A stretch of DNA of 55,971 nucleotides from Candidatus Altimarinota bacterium (lineage in GTDB: Bacteria > Patescibacteriota > Gracilibacteria > BD1-5 > UBA6164). The stretch covers positions 1 to 55,971 of the forward strand of contig JABWCI010000008.1 in assembly GCA_013368515.1 (NCBI GenBank), written 5' to 3'. Shown one piece after another: positions 8,708-49,453 of this stretch (its first letter is position 1; every line of letters starts with the position of its first letter). The notes under the pieces are model-generated. The model searched no databases. It was not told the DNA's origin and saw nothing but the letters and a program-made list of their open reading frames with translations. The position numbers were made by a program, and so were the translations under genes.

Positions 8708-9691
8708 TTAATCAAAAATAACAATTAAGTTGCTATCTTTAAAAATATCTGTCTTGATACATTCTAAGTAACTTTTTAAATTAGTTCATTTTATTATTAT
8801 TTTATAATAATATTGATTATATTTTTTGCTATAATTTGGGTTTAATATAATTTGGATTTCATTTTTTTCATTGTTTAAAATCAATTTATCTTTTATTTTA
8901 TTTATATATTTTAATCCTTTTTCTATATCTTTATTTCTATACTCAATTGTTGCTAATTCACAAAAAGGAGGATAATTAAAAGTCTTTCTTTCTTTTAGAG
9001 TTTTTATAAAAAACTCCTTATAATTATCATAAACTATATCTTTTACTAGTTCATTTTCACTAATAAATGTTTGAATTACAAAATTTGTTTCTACTCAAAG
9101 TCTAGATCATCTTCAAAATAATTGTTTTATATTTGAATATACTTTTTCACTTGTATTATATTTTGGTATTTGAAGTTCTTGTTCTAATAAAATTACTCAT
9201 ATCAGTCCTACATTTTCAAAATCAAATCAAGTAGTTATCATTTTTGTTCATATGATTATTTGAGCATTTTTAAGTATTTCTAGAGCTTTTTCTTTATCAG
9301 ATTTATTTTTTACTATATCAGTATCAAGCCTAAATATATTTTTATCTTTATATGTTTCTCTTAAAATATTTTCTATTTGAACAGTTCATACTCATACTTT
9401 TTGTAATTCACTACTATTACATTTTTCACAATTTTTAGGTACTTTTTGAGTAAAATTACATAAATGACAAGTCATATTATCATTATGAATACTCATAGAA
9501 TTGTCACAATTTGGACATTTGTATAAATAACTACATTTATTACAAATAAGAGAACTATATTCTCATCTTTTGTTTAGATACAAAATAACTTTTTTATTAT
9601 TTTGCATTGAGTTATCTATCTCTTTAAGTAGAGTATTTGATAAATATTTGTTTATTTTTGATTTATCGAGATTTAGATTTACTAGAAGCAT
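8708..9691 (-). CDS. Truncated PriA-like primosomal protein (C-terminal half only)
   Basis: 327 residues matching only the second half of PriA. The protein opens at the segment before the zinc domain and has all eight zinc-ligand cysteines (CNKC, KCPNC, TCHLC, NCEKC at about 55-100). It then has helicase motif V (GTKMITTGFDFENVGL) and motif VI (QLFGRGSRLG) and the C-terminal domain (TFNYPPFCELA). The 3' DNA-end-binding domain, Walker A and DEAH box of lobe 1 are missing. An in-frame TAA lies 33 bases before the ATG and no N-terminal half is nearby. Either a decaying gene or a minimal zinc/lobe-2 protein. The frame has no internal TAA/TAG, which argues for retention. Confidence 0.75.
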
Positions 9692-9770
9692 TTTTATTTT
9701 TTTGATATAATTTCTCTTATTTTATAAGAAAATTTATATTTTTCAATATTTAACTTTTGTTTAATAAAAT

Positions 9771-9799
9771 TTGCAAAAAAAAGCTTTTTATATTATTAT
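9771..9799 (+). promoter_or_regulatory. Promoter of candidate small RNA
   Basis: TTGCAA at 9771-9776 and TATTAT at 9794-9799, spaced by 17 bases. The predicted start is near 9806, which is exactly where the hairpin RNA begins. Confidence 0.55.
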
Positions 9800-9805
9800 A
9801 TATAT

Positions 9806-9868
9806 GAGTCATAGCAACGGTGTAAAGTTTCCTCCTTTAACTTTCCACTGTTATATGTCTCTTTTTTT
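9806..9868 (+). ncRNA. Candidate hairpin RNA with anti-Shine-Dalgarno loop
   Basis: A long hairpin (about 21 paired positions with a U-U and a U-C mismatch and one small bulge) spans 9806-9861 and is followed by seven T. The loop, 9830-9838, reads UCCUCCUUU, identical to the core of the 16S rRNA 3' tail. A promoter lies at the right distance and neither flanking gene runs toward this terminator on the plus strand, so a separate short transcript of about 60 nt fits best. Not a family I recognise. Alternative: simple terminator-like structure; on the minus strand the loop would read as AAAGGAGGA. Confidence 0.5.
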
Positions 9869-9937
9869 GTGTTTAAAATTTTTTAATGTTATAATTATTT
9901 TAAGTTTTATAAACAATTATTTTGTAATCATTATTTT

Positions 9938-10702
9938 GTGAATTTAGAAGAAGAAAATAAAGAGTTAAAGAAAAAACTTCTCATAGCACAATCTTGGATG
10001 GAAAGGGAAGTAAAAACTCAAATAAATCTGATTTCAAAAGAAAAAATATCAAATTTATCATCATGAAATATTGAGGATTTTTTTCATGAAAATGTAGAAG
10101 AAATAATCACAACTTGAGTTCATAGTTTTTTTTGAGAACTTATGATTTTAAATACTCCTAAAACAGTAATGGAAAACATAATTTGAGCTGAAATTTTGTT
10201 TTATAATCAAAGACAAAATAAATTTGCAGACTGATTATGAATAATAAGTTCATATCATAAATCAATAGATTATATAATAGAAAGTACTATAACTAAGCCA
10301 TTTAGAAAATTTGCAAAAAAGCATGAACAAACTATTCTTAGAAGAAATGATCCACTAGAAAAAACTCTTAATTTAGTTGTAAATAGTTGATATATATTGT
10401 GAATTGCTAAACTTTTTCATGCTCTTAGTTTGATAAAAAAATGATGAAACTTATGAGAATTTACTAGATGTTTTAGTGATTTTTTAGATAGTCATTTGTA
10501 CATAAAAGACATACTTTTAGAGGAAAATTTCTATAGATTATTAAAAATACTAATTGATAGTGAAGTTTTTTGAAAAAAAAGACACGAGTGAAAGATAACT
10601 TATGAAGAAACAAAAAAAACTAGAACTATACTTATTTGAGACTTAAAAGAGCAAAATTGTGTTATTTATAAGCTCATAAAAATGGGACAAGTTGATATTT
10701 AA
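9938..10702 (+). CDS. Hypothetical protein with N-terminal coiled coil
   Basis: 254 residues, family not recognised. The first 35 residues are a charged coiled coil (LEEENKELKKKLLIAQSW). The rest is soluble and mostly helical with segments such as PFRKFAKKHEQTILRR and LVVNSGYILGIAKLFHALSL. About fifteen internal TGA codons show it is a native gene. Start is taken as the GTG at 9938; there is no ATG upstream before the small-RNA terminator. A hairpin terminator follows, shared with the foreign gene on the other strand. Confidence 0.6.
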
Positions 10703-10711
10703 AAAAGAGAA

Positions 10712-10743
10712 AAAAGATGCGAGTTAAAAACTCACATCTTTTA
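10712..10743. terminator. Terminator between 9938-10702 and the foreign gene
   Basis: AAAAGATGcGAGTT pairs with ACTCaCATCTTTT around an A-rich loop and ends in T. It can serve both convergent genes. Confidence 0.65.
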
Positions 10744-10771
10744 ATTTTCACTTTTGTAAGCTTACTGCTTA

Positions 10772-11095
10772 TTATTTACCACAAGCAGAAACTAACAAAG
10801 TTGTTTTACCGGTAGCAATGTTGTATTGCTGAACATTGCTCAAGCCCATTTGATATGCATTTGCCCCATAAGTTCCTTTAGGGTATGCCATATTAAATTT
10901 AACTTCTTTCCAGTTCATATATGAGTCTCGAGCCTTTATTATCACGGTTCCATGATAATAAGCATCCCAAGCACGTGCTTTCACAACAACTCCAATGTCC
11001 CCAGTTGATGGATCACAGTAATTGTTGGAAAATTCAAGTGCATGTGCTGAAGTGGCAAAAACTGCCAAAGTAGCAACTATAGCAAGGCGATTCAT
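10772..11095 (-). CDS. Secreted small protein of foreign origin
   Basis: 107 residues with a textbook signal peptide (MNRLAIVATLAVFATSAHA, cleavage after residue 19) and a mature domain of 88 residues with two cysteines (NYCDP and SACGK) that could form a disulfide. It has a good ribosome-binding site (AAAGGAAAT). The composition is clearly richer in GC than its neighbours. All eight glycines use GGN, none uses TGA, and one Arg is CGA and another CGC, unlike native genes. It reads identically in the standard code. It looks acquired from another bacterium, possibly a proteobacterial host or prey. Function unknown. Confidence 0.75.
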   Translation of the reverse strand: MNRLAIVATLAVFATSAHALEFSNNYCDPSTGDIGVVVKARAWDAYYHGTVIIKARDSYMNWKEVKFNMAYPKGTYGANAYQMGLSNVQQYNIATGKTTLLVSACGK

Positions 11096-11213
11096 ATCTA
11101 TTTCCTTTTGTTTGTTGTTTCTTTCTTATGAAAGCAACAATTTTATATTGTTTTTTTTTGTCAGTCAATATAATGTTTTTATCTCCTATTTTATATCGTA
11201 AAATATTTGTACT

Positions 11214-12017
11214 ATGAAATATTTTTTTAGCACATTATTGTTTTTTATTGGTTTCTTACTTTTTAATTTATTTTTGTTTTCATGAGAGTATTTTTTACTT
11301 TTAATTTCTTTAATATTTTTAGTTTTATATTTATATATGCTATATAAATATAAAAAATTATCATTGATTTTTATACCAATTAGTTTGGTTTTATTTTATA
11401 GTCTCTTTTTCTGATATATAAATATTGATAAACAAGAAAAATATACTTTTTTAAATGATTTAGATGATAAAAATATGTCTTATTCATGAACAATTGAAAG
11501 TAATCTAAGAAAATGTTTAAAAAAAGAAGAATGTGATATAGATAATGCTTTAAAGGATGATTTAAAATCTATAGAAAAATTAGTAAATAATCCATCTTGA
11601 TTTAGTTCTACGTTTATTTTAAATTATCTTTTAAATTCAATTAAAGAAAATAAGGAAAAAATTACTAATAAAGAAATTATATATAGTTTTGATAAAGAAA
11701 AATACAATAAAAATGTAATAAAGTCTATGTATATATTATCAAAAGATTTTGATGATTCGACTGATTATAATTTATTTTTTTCTCGTAAACAATATAGATC
11801 TTACTTAAGATCATATTATTATCATGTTTATGATTTAATTGAGAATAATAAGATTTATGAGATAAAAAATAATACATATAAGAATAATAATAATTTTTTA
11901 ATTTTTTTAAATAGAAAATATTTGTACAATTCTTTTATAGAAGATGAATCTATAATAATTAGATATGTAGAAATATTAAATGAAATTGAAAAAACCTTAT
12001 CTGAAATAAGGCAATAA
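11214..12017 (+). CDS. Hypothetical membrane protein
   Basis: 267 residues, not recognised. Three hydrophobic segments fill the first 75 residues (FFSTLLFFIGFLLFNLFLF, a second FLLLISLIFLVLYLYML region, and IPISLVLFYSLFF). They are followed by a soluble, charged, Tyr/Asn-rich domain of about 190 residues. Three internal TGA codons in the N-terminal half extend it well beyond the standard-code ORF that begins at 11727. The C-terminal domain ends about 110 bases before rsmI. Function unknown. Confidence 0.65.
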
Positions 12018-12127
12018 AAAAGTTACTTTAATATTTATATAGGAAATAATCTATTGTTTTGCAGTAATTATTGCATTTTACTATTTTATTTATAAAATAC
12101 TTTTATATATTTCCTAACTATTTTACT

Positions 12128-12805
12128 TTGTTATATATAGTTGCAACACCAATTTGAAATCTAGACGATATCACTTATAGAGCAGTTAGAATCTTGCAAG
12201 AAGTTGATTCTATTGCTTGTGAAGATACTAGAACTAGTTCTACACTTTTAAATCATTATGATATCAAAAAACCACTTATTTCTTTTCATAGTCATTCTTG
12301 AGTAACAAAGGTTGATAAAATCATTTCTCAATTAAAAGAAGGGCATAATATGGCACTTATATCTGATGCTGGAACTCCAGGTTTTTCTGATCCTGGTTAT
12401 GTTTTGATAAAAGAAGCTATAATTGCTTGAGTAGAAGTTGTCCCTATTCCTTGAGTTACAGCTTTTTCTACAGCTTTAATGTGAAGTTGATTTCCTATGA
12501 ATCATTTCTTATATCTATGATTTTTGCCAGTTAAAAAATGAAGACAAACTTTGTTTAACTCACTTGTAGAAAGAAAAAATAGTAAAGCTTGATTGGAGAC
12601 TGTAGTTATATATGAGTCAGTTCATAGAATAGTTAAAACTATAGAAGAAATATGAACTTATTTCTGAATGGAACACAATATAGTAATAGGTCGTGAATTA
12701 ACAAAAAAATTTGAAGAATTTAATAGATGAACAGTTAGAGAAGTACTTGATTATTACACTCAAAATAGTTCAAAAGTTAAATGAGAATTTGTAGTAATTT
12801 TTTAG
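12128..12805 (+). CDS. rsmI: 16S rRNA C1402 ribose 2'-O-methyltransferase
   Basis: RsmI methylates the ribose of C1402 in the decoding centre using SAM. The 225-residue product begins [18 protein letters not shown], the near-invariant family start, then has [22 protein letters not shown], the GGxxx-like [20 protein letters not shown]-binding loop, and [17 protein letters not shown]. The start codon is TTG (12128-12130); no ATG is available in frame and the family start fits exactly. The next gene begins 3 bases after its stop. Confidence 0.93.
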
Positions 12806-12808
12806 ATT

Positions 12809-13084
12809 ATGAAATTATTTTTAAATGAAAAAAAGACTGAACTTTTTATCAAAACTTCTCTATGGAATAGTATAATAGAGGTTTTTTTGCAAGAAAAAAA
12901 TATAGATATGTCATCATATCTAGTTTCTATACAAATAAAAAATGATACACTTTTAATTAAAACAAATAATCCATTAATAAATTCAGAATTACATTTATTT
13001 TATGATAAAATTAACTATAATTTCCAAAATAAAATAAAAAATATAGATTTAAAAGATTATAATTTTGAAATAAAATTTATATAA
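12809..13084 (+). CDS. Small hypothetical protein, weakly DciA/DUF721-like
   Basis: 91 residues. The arrangement of an N-terminal helix, then DTLLIKTNNPLINSELHLFY, then a C-terminal strand (YNFEIKFI) recalls the DUF721/DciA helicase-loader fold (a hydrophobic 'L.v.v.s.aw..eL' strand-helix), but the similarity is loose. It starts 3 bases after rsmI and is surely co-transcribed. It contains no glycine, so the code is not tested. A terminator follows. Confidence 0.55.
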   Translation: MKLFLNEKKTELFIKTSLWNSIIEVFLQEKNIDMSSYLVSIQIKNDTLLIKTNNPLINSELHLFYDKINYNFQNKIKNIDLKDYNFEIKFI

Positions 13085-13111
13085 AAACACATCATTTATG
13101 ATGTGTTTTTT
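13085..13111. terminator. Bidirectional terminator
   Basis: AAAAACACATCAT and ATGATGTGTTTTT form a perfect stem between the two convergent stop codons. Confidence 0.8.
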
Positions 13112-13334
13112 AGTCTATTAATTGATATGTTCTATCATTTATAATTATAATTTCACTAGTTGTCTTAGTTTCTAATATATTTGCTTTTGCAAAAGTTATA
13201 GTACTTTTATTATTTGCATTTGTTATATTTCAAACAGAAGTTATTAAAAATGCTATTATTAATACTATAACAGTCCCATTTTGTAATTTTTCGTCAAATA
13301 ATTTGTAGTAATTTTTAATAAATTTTTTTAGCAT
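13110..13334 (-). CDS. Small secreted or membrane-anchored protein
   Basis: 74 residues. A basic N-terminus (LKKFIKNYYKLFDEKLQN) precedes one hydrophobic segment (TVIVLIIAFLITSVGNI, about 21-37) and a short polar tail of about 35 residues rich in Thr/Ile. One TGA encodes the Gly after the hydrophobic stretch. Likely a single-span or exported peptide. No family recognised. Confidence 0.5.
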
Positions 13335-13390
13335 TTTCCTTTAAATATAATCTATTATTATTATTAAATCATATTTTAATTTTAAATGCA

Positions 13391-13418
13391 AAAAAACACT
13401 TGAAAATCAAGTGTTTTT
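13391..13418 (-). terminator. Terminator after the 2-oxoacid oxidoreductase operon
   Basis: AAAAACACTTGA pairs with TCAAGTGTTTTT. The stem starts at the stop codon of the beta subunit gene. Confidence 0.75.
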
Positions 13419-14019
13419 ACCATCTTTTAAAACTAGGACAAGCTTGATGAATATTTACAAGTGAAAAACCAGGATGAAGAATCGCTTCTTTTATTATATC
13501 TTTCATTTCTAAAAATTTTATACTATCAGCTGTTTTAGCAAAAGTACATCCAGCATCAATGGCCAATTTTATTGGATCAAAAGGTTGTTTAGTATTTCCA
13601 AGAGGAGTAGTTTTTGTTTTTGCTCAAATAGGAGTTGTAGGGCTTGCTTGACCAGTTGTAAGAGCATAGTTTTCATTATCCATAACTATATAAGTTATGT
13701 TTAAATCTCTTTTACAAGCATGGATAAAATGTCCCATACCAATTCAGTATCAGTCTCCATCTCAACCAGTAGCCAGTACTGTAAGTTCAGGATTTACCAT
13801 TTTTATACCAGTAGCAAAAGGTAGAGTTCTACCATGAAGAGTTTCAGCTGCATATCAGTCAATATATTGACTTGCTTTACCAGAACAACCTACTCAAGAA
13901 ACAACTACTCTTTGATGAGAAGCAATTCCTAGTTCTTCAAATGCTTTTTTTATTGCTCAGATTATAAGTGTGTCTCAACATCAAGCACACCATTGTATAT
14001 TATTTAATCAAGATCTCAT
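13417..14019 (-). CDS. korB: 2-oxoacid:ferredoxin oxidoreductase, beta subunit
   Basis: 200-residue beta subunit that binds thiamine diphosphate and Mg. Visible motifs: WCAGCGD near the N-terminus (residues about 10-16, giving cluster-ligand cysteines), GxGCSG (VVSGVGCSGKASQYI), ETLHGRTLPFATGIK, the ThDP/Mg motif GGDGDGYGIGMGH, and DNENYALTTGQASPTTP. It is shorter than most beta subunits (about 280). The alpha/gamma subunit gene ends 2 bases upstream. With it, the enzyme would oxidise a 2-oxoacid (pyruvate or 2-oxoglutarate type not distinguishable) to acyl-CoA and reduce ferredoxin. Confidence 0.9.
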
Positions 14020-14021
14020 TT

Positions 14022-15686
14022 TTATTTTTTTAATTCATTAAAATCTTCTATATAGAAAGGGAATAAGTCATATTTTCTCATATTTGATATCTTTAAATTT
14101 GGTATATATTTAAGACCAAATTCTTTTGTTATATAATTTTCTAATTGACCAGAATAATTACTTTCTATAAAAATAATTTCATCTTTTCATTCTATTTCTT
14201 TTCTTAATCTAGCATCAAGTGGTTTTAAAAATTTGATAATTATAAGACCAAATTCACTATTATTTTTTACAAATTCTCTTGCTGTATAAGTAGTAAAACT
14301 AGTAACTATAAGCATTTTTTTTGCATTTGGATTAACAACTTCATATCAATTATATCATTCTTTTTCAAAGAAATTTTCAAGTTTTTTCCATCTTTTTTCT
14401 GTAAATACTTTTTTTACAAGTGGATCTTCGCTTGTAGCTCAATATTCATCGTGTTCATAACTTGTAGCTATAAAATCACCATTTTTTGTACCTACTTTTA
14501 CTCTTGGAGAAATTCAAGTTTCATTTAGTTCATATCTTTTATAATCTTCTCCTGGATTTTCAAGCATTACTCATCTATCTATTTTTGGTACATTTAATTC
14601 TCAGATAGTTCCAACCATTTCACTTGATTGTTTATCCATTAAAACTAAAACAATACTTTGATATTTATCCGCTATATTTAGAGCTAAACCTCAAAAAGTG
14701 TAAACTTCTTCTAAAGAACTTGGGTACATAACAACATGATCAAAATCACCAAAAGTAGGATTTAGAGCATAGTTTATATCTCATGCTTCGTGATAAGTTG
14801 GAGTTCCAGTACTTGGACCAGCTCTTTGAGAAAGTACAACTGTTATTGGGAATTCAGCTTGCACAGCAAAACTTAGAGCTTCACTCATAAGTGCAAATCA
14901 TCATCAAGATGTACCACTCATAGCTCTAGCTCATGTAAAACTTGCTCATAGAGCCGAATTTATAACTGCTATTTCATCTTCTGCTTGAAAATATTTTACT
15001 CTACCATCATTTATAACTTCACTAAGAATAGTAGATGCTGGTGTCATAGGGTAAGCACTATAAAATTCAAGTCCTCATTCTATTGCTCACTTTGTTAGAG
15101 ATTTATTTCAATAAATAGTTTCTTTTGATTCTCAGATTCTTTTTATAGTTAAATCACTTTTATTTTTAATTTCATATGTATCAAAAATATTTTTAACTAT
15201 ATTCTTATTTAACTCTACTGTATCATTTCATTTTTTAGCAAATACTTTTTCTATTTTTTCAAGTATAATATTCAAATCTAGATTTAAATATTTAGCATAA
15301 ATTCAAAGTAGGTAAGTGTTATCATACTTATCTGTGATTTCAAGTTCTAATACATTAAAATTATCAAAATTTAAACCTTTTTCTTTTAATTTATTTATCC
15401 ATTTACTATTTATAATTATAGTTGAATTTTCTTTTAAGCTATGCATTTGTTTTTGTAAACTTTCAGAATTGAAGGCAAGTACTATATCTACATATTTTGT
15501 AAGAAATTTTTCTCCTGAATTGGAAATATTTACATCAAAAAAGTTTACTCATCATTTTATTCTTGATTCGTATTCTATATCAGTTATCAAATCATAACCA
15601 AGCTCTGCATAAAGCTCTGAAATAATATCAACTGTTGAATTAACTCATGCTCATGCAGGTCAAGTTATTCTAGTGTTTAGTTTCAT
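14022..15686 (-). CDS. korA: 2-oxoacid:ferredoxin oxidoreductase, fused gamma-alpha subunit
   Basis: 554 residues. The N-terminal 180 are the gamma domain (TRITGPAGAGVNSTVDIISE). The alpha domain starts near 195 (GNKSLTKGAIEGGLEFYSAY PMTPAS region), with the catalytic block YFQAEDEIAVINSALGASFT, TSGGGFALMSEAL, and the CoA-facing QRAGPSTGTPT. This gamma-alpha fusion is the KorA layout. Many glycines in the active-site region are TGA. The stop TAA lies 2 bases before korB, so translation is probably coupled. No ferredoxin-domain subunit is adjacent; the ferredoxin-reductase fusion at 37144-38643 might be the electron outlet. Confidence 0.92.
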
Positions 15687-30784: not shown

Positions 30785-30801
30785 ACCAAAGGTCTATTTT
30801 T
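30777..30801. terminator. Bidirectional terminator holding both TAG stops
   Basis: AAAAATAGACC and GGTCTATTTTT pair perfectly with an AAA loop. Each arm contains the TAG of one of the convergent genes, so both proteins end in Lys-Lys. Confidence 0.85.
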
Positions 30802-32341
30802 TTGTATCAAATTTTTCTATTATACTTGCAAATATCTTGTATAATTTTTCATCATATCAATTATTTTTTGTTAGCCAAGTTGACAAGTTAAATGCAATAG
30901 TTGGTTTAGAATATTTTCTAAAAAATATATTAAAAATACTTTCATAAGCTGTAGATATTTTTTTTGCATATTTTAACGAGTCTATTTTATTATCTAGTTT
31001 TTTTAGACTTAACTCATATTTTTCTTGATCAAATTCATCTCAAAATTCTTTAGCTCTTTCATCAACTTCAGATTTTATGTATTGTTTTATAGAATCTACT
31101 TTATAATAATTTTCAAATTCTCAATCTAGAACAATCCAATTATATTTTTTAAAATCATTTTCATATACAAATCAAACCTTATGTACTTTTCTAATAGCTT
31201 TTATTATCATATCACGATCAACATAAAAATTATCATCTTTGTCTATTAGTGCTACTACATTTTCTTTTCAAAACAATTCACAAGAAAATATATACCACTC
31301 ATAAAGTGCTCATTTTCATCACACATCTATTATGCTTACATTTTTATAATTTAAGTTAAAATAATTATCTATTTCTTCTTTTGTTAATCAATCTTTATTG
31401 ATCTTATAATAATTTTCCCATTTTGTATTTTCATATATATTTGGAATAGATATCTTTTCAGTTTCTCCTTCTACAAGTATTACGTAATCAGAAAAAAATA
31501 CTCATGCATTCTTAAATATAAGATTTATCATTATTTTATTGAATCTACCTCAAGAATTATCTATTTTTTTTATTTTTGTAGAATTCTCTTCCATTTTTAC
31601 AAAAACTACATCAGAAATTTCATACTTATCTTTTCTAAAATTTGAAACTAGGTCAGGAGAATGAGTAGAGTATAGAACTTGTGTATTTTCAGTTTCTCAA
31701 ATATCTTGTAAGATAGAATCTATCATTTTTGTCGCATGTGGATGCAAAAAGTTTTCTGGTTGATCTATCAAAAAAATAGTAAAATTTTTATTTTGTCTAT
31801 CACTTACACTATATAAGTATAGTTTTAATAAACTTACAAGTAAAGTTGTTTTTTTCTCTCCTGATTTATCATTTAATTCTTTTATTTTTTCTTTTGAAAA
31901 TCTACCTTCTTTTATTTTTTCTTCTTTATTTTTTAGTATTAAATCAATAAGTTTTAGATAACCATCTTCATTATTTTCTTTGTTTATTTTTCTATCACTA
32001 GGTATATAAATAATATTTATTTTTTCTAGTAATTTTATTGTATCTTCATTATCATTTCTTTCTATCTTTGTTTCTTTTCAATCAAAATAAGCTTCTAGGT
32101 AGATGCTTATATCTTTTCATTCATATGTAATTATAGCTTCTAAACTTAATTTTCTTTTAGGATTTTTGAAGTCTTTTTCTTTGATTTTTTTTGAGTTTAA
32201 TAGTTTTTCTATAGCTTTTAAAATAACTGTTTTTCAACTTCAGTTTTTTCAAACCAAAACAGTTTTGTTACTTCAAAAACTAATAGTTTCATTTTCTATA
32301 CTTCTAAAGTTTACTATATGTACACTTTTTATGTGAATCAT
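30794..32341 (-). CDS. OLD-family ATP-dependent nuclease (AAA + TOPRIM)
   Basis: 515 residues. N-terminal SMC/RecF-type ATPase with Walker A VGKNGSGKTVILKAI (about 28-42), signature-like LNDKSGEKKTTLLVSLLKLY, Walker B FTIFLIDQPENFLHPHAT and a sensor His in TQVLYSTHSPDLVS. The C-terminal part is a TOPRIM domain with VILVEGETEKISIP and a later DKDDN acidic motif. This is the class of OLD/OvdE nucleases; many act in phage defence alone or with a partner helicase (Gabija-like). No UvrD-like partner is adjacent, so a stand-alone OLD protein is the best reading. Confidence 0.85.
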
Positions 32342-48868: not shown

Positions 48869-49453
48869 TTAAATATATAATCAATTTTCTTCTATATAAT
48901 CTCTTACTTTTGGAGTCAAAATATGGTCAACTTTCATTTTATTTTTTATCATTTCTCTAACTGTTGTTGATGAAATTTCTAGTATGTTTAAATCAAATAT
49001 TTGGTAATTTTCCATATCTAATTTTTTTGGTATAGCAAAACCTTTTCTATTTATAAATATTTTTTTAAGTTTATTTTCTATATATTTTTCAGTATTTCAT
49101 ACCCGATTTGGCATACTTGAAATAGTATCAATTCAAAATATGTGATATGGTGAAAATCATAGTTTGTCTTTAAAATAATTTTCTACTTCTATAGTTGTAG
49201 TATTTCAAGGATTTTTTAAAAAATAATCTTCAAAATCTACATTTAATCATCTTTGTTTTAGCTCAGCAAAAAATATTTCAATGATTTTTTCTCTATCAAT
49301 ATTTTGTATTTTATAGTCTTTGTCTTTTCTTGTTCAATCAGGAGAAAATATGATTTTTTCTACTATACCTTTTTCTAAAACTCATTTTATAACTTGAAAA
49401 TGTCAGATAGTAGGAGGATTAAAAGCTCCTCAATAAATAGCTATATTTTTCAT
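48869..49453 (-). CDS. nadD: Nicotinate-nucleotide adenylyltransferase, with a CGG codon at the conserved Trp
   Basis: 194 residues. NadD makes NaAD from NaMN and ATP. Motifs: IYGGAFNPPTIGHFQVIKGV at the start (G-x-FNPP..GH), the ISSTTVRE (here LEISSTTVREMI) near the end, and the central FGIDTISSMPN-x-VGNTEKY. In NadD proteins that x is the near-invariant Trp of the GAD...LP.W segment. Here it is encoded by CGG (49103-49105), the only CGG or CGA in any native gene of the window. That fits CGG being read as Trp rather than Arg. All other Trp in the window are TGG. Confidence 0.9.

Follow-up and report, generated by a model that had tools for sequence, protein, structure and literature searches.

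The window, that is, the whole stretch of DNA analysed here, is a 55,971-nucleotide contig of a Candidatus Altimarinota bacterium (JABWCI010000008.1, here C19, one of 28 contigs in an assembly of 1,154,102 bases that is 94.8% complete). Its reverse strand carries, at 48869-49453, the gene nadD for nicotinate-nucleotide adenylyltransferase. The product, 194 amino acids long under NCBI genetic code 25, matches PDB entry 1kam (E 6e-14) and the model TIGR00482 (E 1.7e-20), the latter match lying under the curated cut-off for that model. With its 10 in-frame UGA codons, the reading frame stays open only when UGA is read through. Its codon 117, at 49103-49105 on the reverse strand and in the context FGIDTISSMPN-[CGG]-VGNTEKY, is a CGG that most likely specifies tryptophan, as judged from the codons of relatives in the same column.

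Codons were counted in 54 hand-picked, native-looking open reading frames (ORFs) of the window, 16,423 codons in all, which include one CGG, one CGA, three CGC, 16 CGT, 383 AGA, 106 TGG and 712 TGA. These 712 in-frame UGA codons, together with a tRNA-Gly(UCA) at C23:37788-37866 (reverse strand; G1:C72, C2:G71, G3:C70, U73), support UGA as a glycine codon. The lone CGA, at 10928-10930, lies inside a UGA-free ORF of 107 amino acids with a signal-peptide-like start (10772-11095, reverse strand), whose GC content is 39% compared with 23% for the window. Pfam and PHROGs gave no match for this ORF, it has no counterpart in the neighbour stretches, and its composition suggests that it was probably acquired from outside. 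Because it looks foreign, the statement of the sequence-only reading that a single CGG or CGA codon occurs in native frames is a fair one.

A NadD match was obtained in 20 of the 48 family genomes. The column of codon 117 is CGG in all five genomes of the same genus that have the gene (G000, which is the present one, and G022-G025) and in G046 of genus g20, TGG in 12 other family genomes, and without a residue in two sequences of the family alignment, one of them truncated; no arginine codon was found there among the 20 family NadD sequences. The conserved tryptophan that had been assigned to this position is borne out by the 12 TGG codons and by the PDB NadD chains with a displayed alignment (1kam, 2qtr and others), which have Trp in the column; this residue presumably stacks against the nicotinate ring. 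One codon in a draft genome might be an assembly or sequencing error, but the identical codon in four further genomes of the genus and in G046, all assembled separately, rules this out and leaves it a practically negligible probability.

CGG codons in conserved genes

A survey of CGG codons covered about 40% of the present genome, and roughly 25-40 such codons are expected genome-wide by extrapolation from this sample; ORFs that overlap rRNA genes (L120, about 8900-15500, with the corresponding parts of L145 and L312) were excluded, being non-coding. Conserved genes with a CGG in this genome were compared across the family, which gave five informative sites, NadD codon 117 among them. At RelA/SpoT codon 484, CGG is found in 11 genomes and the rest have W (16), Y (2) or S (1), with W in the PDB relatives too. 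RpoC codon 797 (SGARGN-x-G) is likewise CGG in 11 genomes, against a background of 18 W and one L, while RF1 codon 269 is CGG in 13 genomes and otherwise F (8), Y (8) or W (1).

The exception is GalU codon 252, whose CGG, kept in five genera (g1, g2, g12, g14 and g19), lies on a conserved arginine column: 18 of the 19 other family sequences have Arg, as does PDB GalU, and the nineteenth, from G008, has TGG. This TGG indicates that tryptophan is possible at codon 252, and the position can be regarded as one that accepts Trp, perhaps a scar from an in-place change of codon meaning. CGG codons on arginine columns, which the sequence-only reading had named as evidence against itself, are thus present, among these five sites, at galU only, whereas the RelA/SpoT and RpoC sites fall on tryptophan columns and the RF1 site on an aromatic one.

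With the adverse galU site included, tryptophan is the best of the 20 amino acids over the five sites and exceeds arginine by 8.2 log10 units with one background, or by 7.6 when a 20-residue matrix is used. As a control of the method, the same log10 ratio was +28 to +30 for G003, +12 to +13 for G035 and -41, that is, in favour of Arg, for G012, so the method separates both codes. In comparisons within the genus, CGG stood opposite CGG, twice opposite TGG and once opposite TAT, and never opposite AGA. A direct TGG/CGG exchange inside the genus is seen in an OLD/AAA-type ATPase gene of the window (30794-32341, reverse strand), in which the tryptophan codon 489, a TGG at 30875-30877, is CGG in the same-genus genomes G022 and G024. 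That CGG still means arginine, with NadD Arg117 and the others being real substitutions, would agree with the standard meaning of the codon, with the galU site and with an A20 in the tRNA described below. It is, however, extremely improbable in view of a ratio of about 10^8 against it, an exchange partner that is TGG and not AGA, the failure to find an ordinary tRNA-Arg(CCG/UCG), and the fact that three of the five sites are Trp columns, compared with only 9 of 16,050 aligned pairs (0.06%) in which arginine codons stand opposite Trp in these genomes.

A candidate reader of CGG

A tRNA(CCG) was detected with ARAGORN at C27:27500-27576, adjoining ruvC. Among the 31 tRNAs of the genome, A1:U72 together with G73 is carried only by this tRNA and by tRNA-Trp(CCA), and the three tRNA-Arg (UCU, CCU and GCG) carry A73. 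Of the tRNA with a CCG or UCG anticodon and Trp identity that the sequence-only reading had proposed to look for, a CCG form with A1:U72 and G73 was therefore found; a tRNA with a UCG anticodon was not found in this genome, nor was the normal tRNA-Arg(CCG/UCG) that it had held to be incompatible with a tryptophan reading.

Infernal, run with the general tRNA family RF00005, did not recover the tRNA(CCG) at either default or relaxed cut-offs, and in its own genus the tRNA was also missed by a DNA pattern with a standard T-loop. Its T-loop is GUGCAAUU and its D-loop is devoid of GG, and these unusual loops may be the reason why general tRNA models miss it. G18G19 is absent from tRNA(CCG), G replaces U55 in most, and the anticodon arm allows either a sixth pair or a 9-base loop. 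A covariance model built from five tRNA(CCG) and searched over the 48 family genomes gave matches in 32 of them at 87-105 bits, the next best tRNA reaching 55 bits, and all 30 of the matches inspected have a CCG anticodon, A1:U72 and G73. At aligned position 20, whose numbering is uncertain because the D-loop has no G18G19, 30 of 30 tRNA(CCG) have A, and A20 is an arginine identity element in Escherichia coli. Judged from sequence alone, the identity of tRNA(CCG) is mixed.

We propose, with a probability of about 0.93, that this organism uses CGG as an infrequent codon for tryptophan, read by a dedicated tRNA(CCG) whose acceptor end is of the Trp type, and that CGA has not been changed to Trp. 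The suggestion that CGG may mean tryptophan has thus gained support from column conservation, from the interchange of CGG and TGG both inside the genus and between genera, and from the Trp-type tRNA(CCG). In the proposed mechanism, tRNA(CCG), with its A1:U72 and G73, would be charged by the single TrpRS, and the ribosome would insert tryptophan, and tryptophan exclusively, at the other CGG codons as well as at that of nadD; CGA, nearly extinct here, would not have turned into a Trp codon and is still Arg in relatives. One TrpRS gene is present in the genome, and a second TrpRS, considered as a mechanism, was not found there.

A reading in which CGG is ambiguous, decoded as both Trp and Arg since tRNA(CCG) would keep some arginine identity (A20, C35 and G36) beside tryptophan identity (A1:U72 and G73), can draw on the invariant A at aligned position 20 and on a galU CGG retained on an Arg column in all five of its genera. 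Ambiguity is nevertheless rather unlikely: every other conserved CGG site falls on a Trp or aromatic column, a Trp that harmed GalU would be expected to have been lost, given that CGG becomes AGG by one mutation, and the TGG of G008 argues that Trp is tolerated at the GalU site.

A further tRNA-like match in the genome, at C17:15873-15972 on the reverse strand (L030, L052), has good acceptor, D and T arms, but its anticodon loop measures about 33 bases and looks as though it held an insert. It was rejected as a CGG reader, having no CCG or UCG in the anticodon region.

Distribution in the family

The tRNA(CCG) was not found in the eight genomes of genus g6, in G028 (g10) or in seven others, some of which are incomplete. 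CGG and CGA both align with Arg in the g6 genomes, and an Arg-type tRNA(UCG) was found there directly in G013 and G014 and by pattern match in four more. CGG falls on aromatic columns in 19 genomes, of which 17 have tRNA(CCG) and the other two are the same-genus drafts G025 and G026; it falls on basic columns, GalU aside, in five genomes, all of g6 and none with tRNA(CCG). The association between the tRNA and the meaning of the codon has a chance probability of 0.0005 if the genomes are treated as independent, although g6 is one clade. Midpoint rooting of the tree places g6 together with g4, whose member G008 carries tRNA(CCG), and loss of the tRNA with a return of CGG to Arg is therefore the simpler reading for g6, one that depends on the root. 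Such a reversion was already raised in a 2021 paper (PMC8629427).

Within this family, then, some lineages have the CGG change and others do not, which allows a direct comparison of how a code change is gained and lost, and the presence of a single tRNA gene tracks the meaning of CGG. Natural sense-codon changes are few in bacteria, and we know of no case of CGG reassignment that was demonstrated at the protein level.

The tRNA(CCG) genes of G008 (g4; L361) and G027 (g9; L364), both at 1501-1577, are one base apart, and the two genera are distant on the tree; this near-identity makes horizontal transfer possible.

CGA and the known codes

CGA codons stand opposite Arg in G012 (410 sites), G035 (19), G003 (7) and the present genome (one informative site), and the further suggestion that CGA, too, might mean Trp was not upheld. 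The survey to which the sequence-only reading had referred does exist: Shulgina and Eddy (2021, eLife, PMC8629427) predict that Absconditabacteria read both CGA and CGG as Trp, a prediction repeated for Absconditabacterales in a 2026 paper (PMC13092985). That both codons are Trp here, as predicted for this sister group, is very improbable, because CGA aligns with Arg and no UCG tRNA with Trp features was seen. In the sampled contigs of the present genome CGA is nearly extinct and no tRNA that would read it by standard rules was found, and for these reasons CGA may be close to unassigned here.

According to PMC8629427, CGG is read as Trp in some Gracilibacteria and as Arg in others, and tRNAs with the arginine element A20 were left unassigned. 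The change of CGG to Trp is thus already predicted for relatives, and the present analysis adds detail on the tRNA and its distribution. As described there for Absconditabacteria and some Gracilibacteria, CGG = Trp is accompanied by UGA = Gly, low GC, AGA as the main arginine codon and a consistent tRNA. Unlike in Absconditabacteria, CGA is Arg in relatives and nearly absent from the genome itself, and a UCG tRNA was not found; the unusual D-loop and T-loop of tRNA(CCG) are a further difference from that known kind. The cases of Anaerococcus and the Bacilli order RFN20, also from PMC8629427, are similar in that only CGG is Trp, CGA stays Arg and tRNA(UCG) is missing, but they belong to an unrelated phylum in which CGA is read by a tRNA-Arg(ICG), reported by that paper to be lacking in CPR. 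NCBI genetic code 25 (SR1 and Gracilibacteria) shares UGA = Gly and a tRNA(UCA) with the present organism. In contrast to the reading proposed here, it keeps CGG as Arg and would hence mistranslate these CGG codons, so that code-25 translations of such genomes would contain wrong residues at essential sites, for example, at the NadD tryptophan.

A different change of CGA may have occurred in g15 and in one genome of g20. The tRNA(UCG) of G033 and G034 (g15) and of G045 (g20), located at L109:707-782, L110:1486-1561 and L155:121-196 (all on the reverse strand), has G3:U70, G1:C72, G2:C71 and A73 like tRNA-Ala and is without A20. Among 103 distinct tRNAs compared, the alanine identity pair G3:U70 occurs only in these tRNA(UCG) and in tRNA-Ala(UGC). 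CGA-bearing genes of the three genomes lie at L213:1489-2379 (forward strand), L245:2-2965 and L049:980-1378 (both reverse strand). Their CGA columns include the GalU PAAG motif, with A in 35 of 35 sequences, and an RpoC column with 26 A and six G, besides two small-gene sites with A in both, NadD with V or I, a further RpoC column with Q or T and a few thin ones. Over 11 CGA sites, a small sample noticed post hoc, Ala is best, ahead of Ser by 3.0 and of Arg by 6.5 log10 units. A literature search found no report of a change of CGA to Ala. From tRNA features and aligned columns, the evidence leans slightly towards CGA having changed from Arg to Ala in G033, G034 and G045, in which case the code of G034 and G045 would have CGU and CGC for Arg, CGA for Ala, CGG for Trp and UGA for Gly, and a single family would have seen one codon box reassigned on two occasions, to different amino acids.
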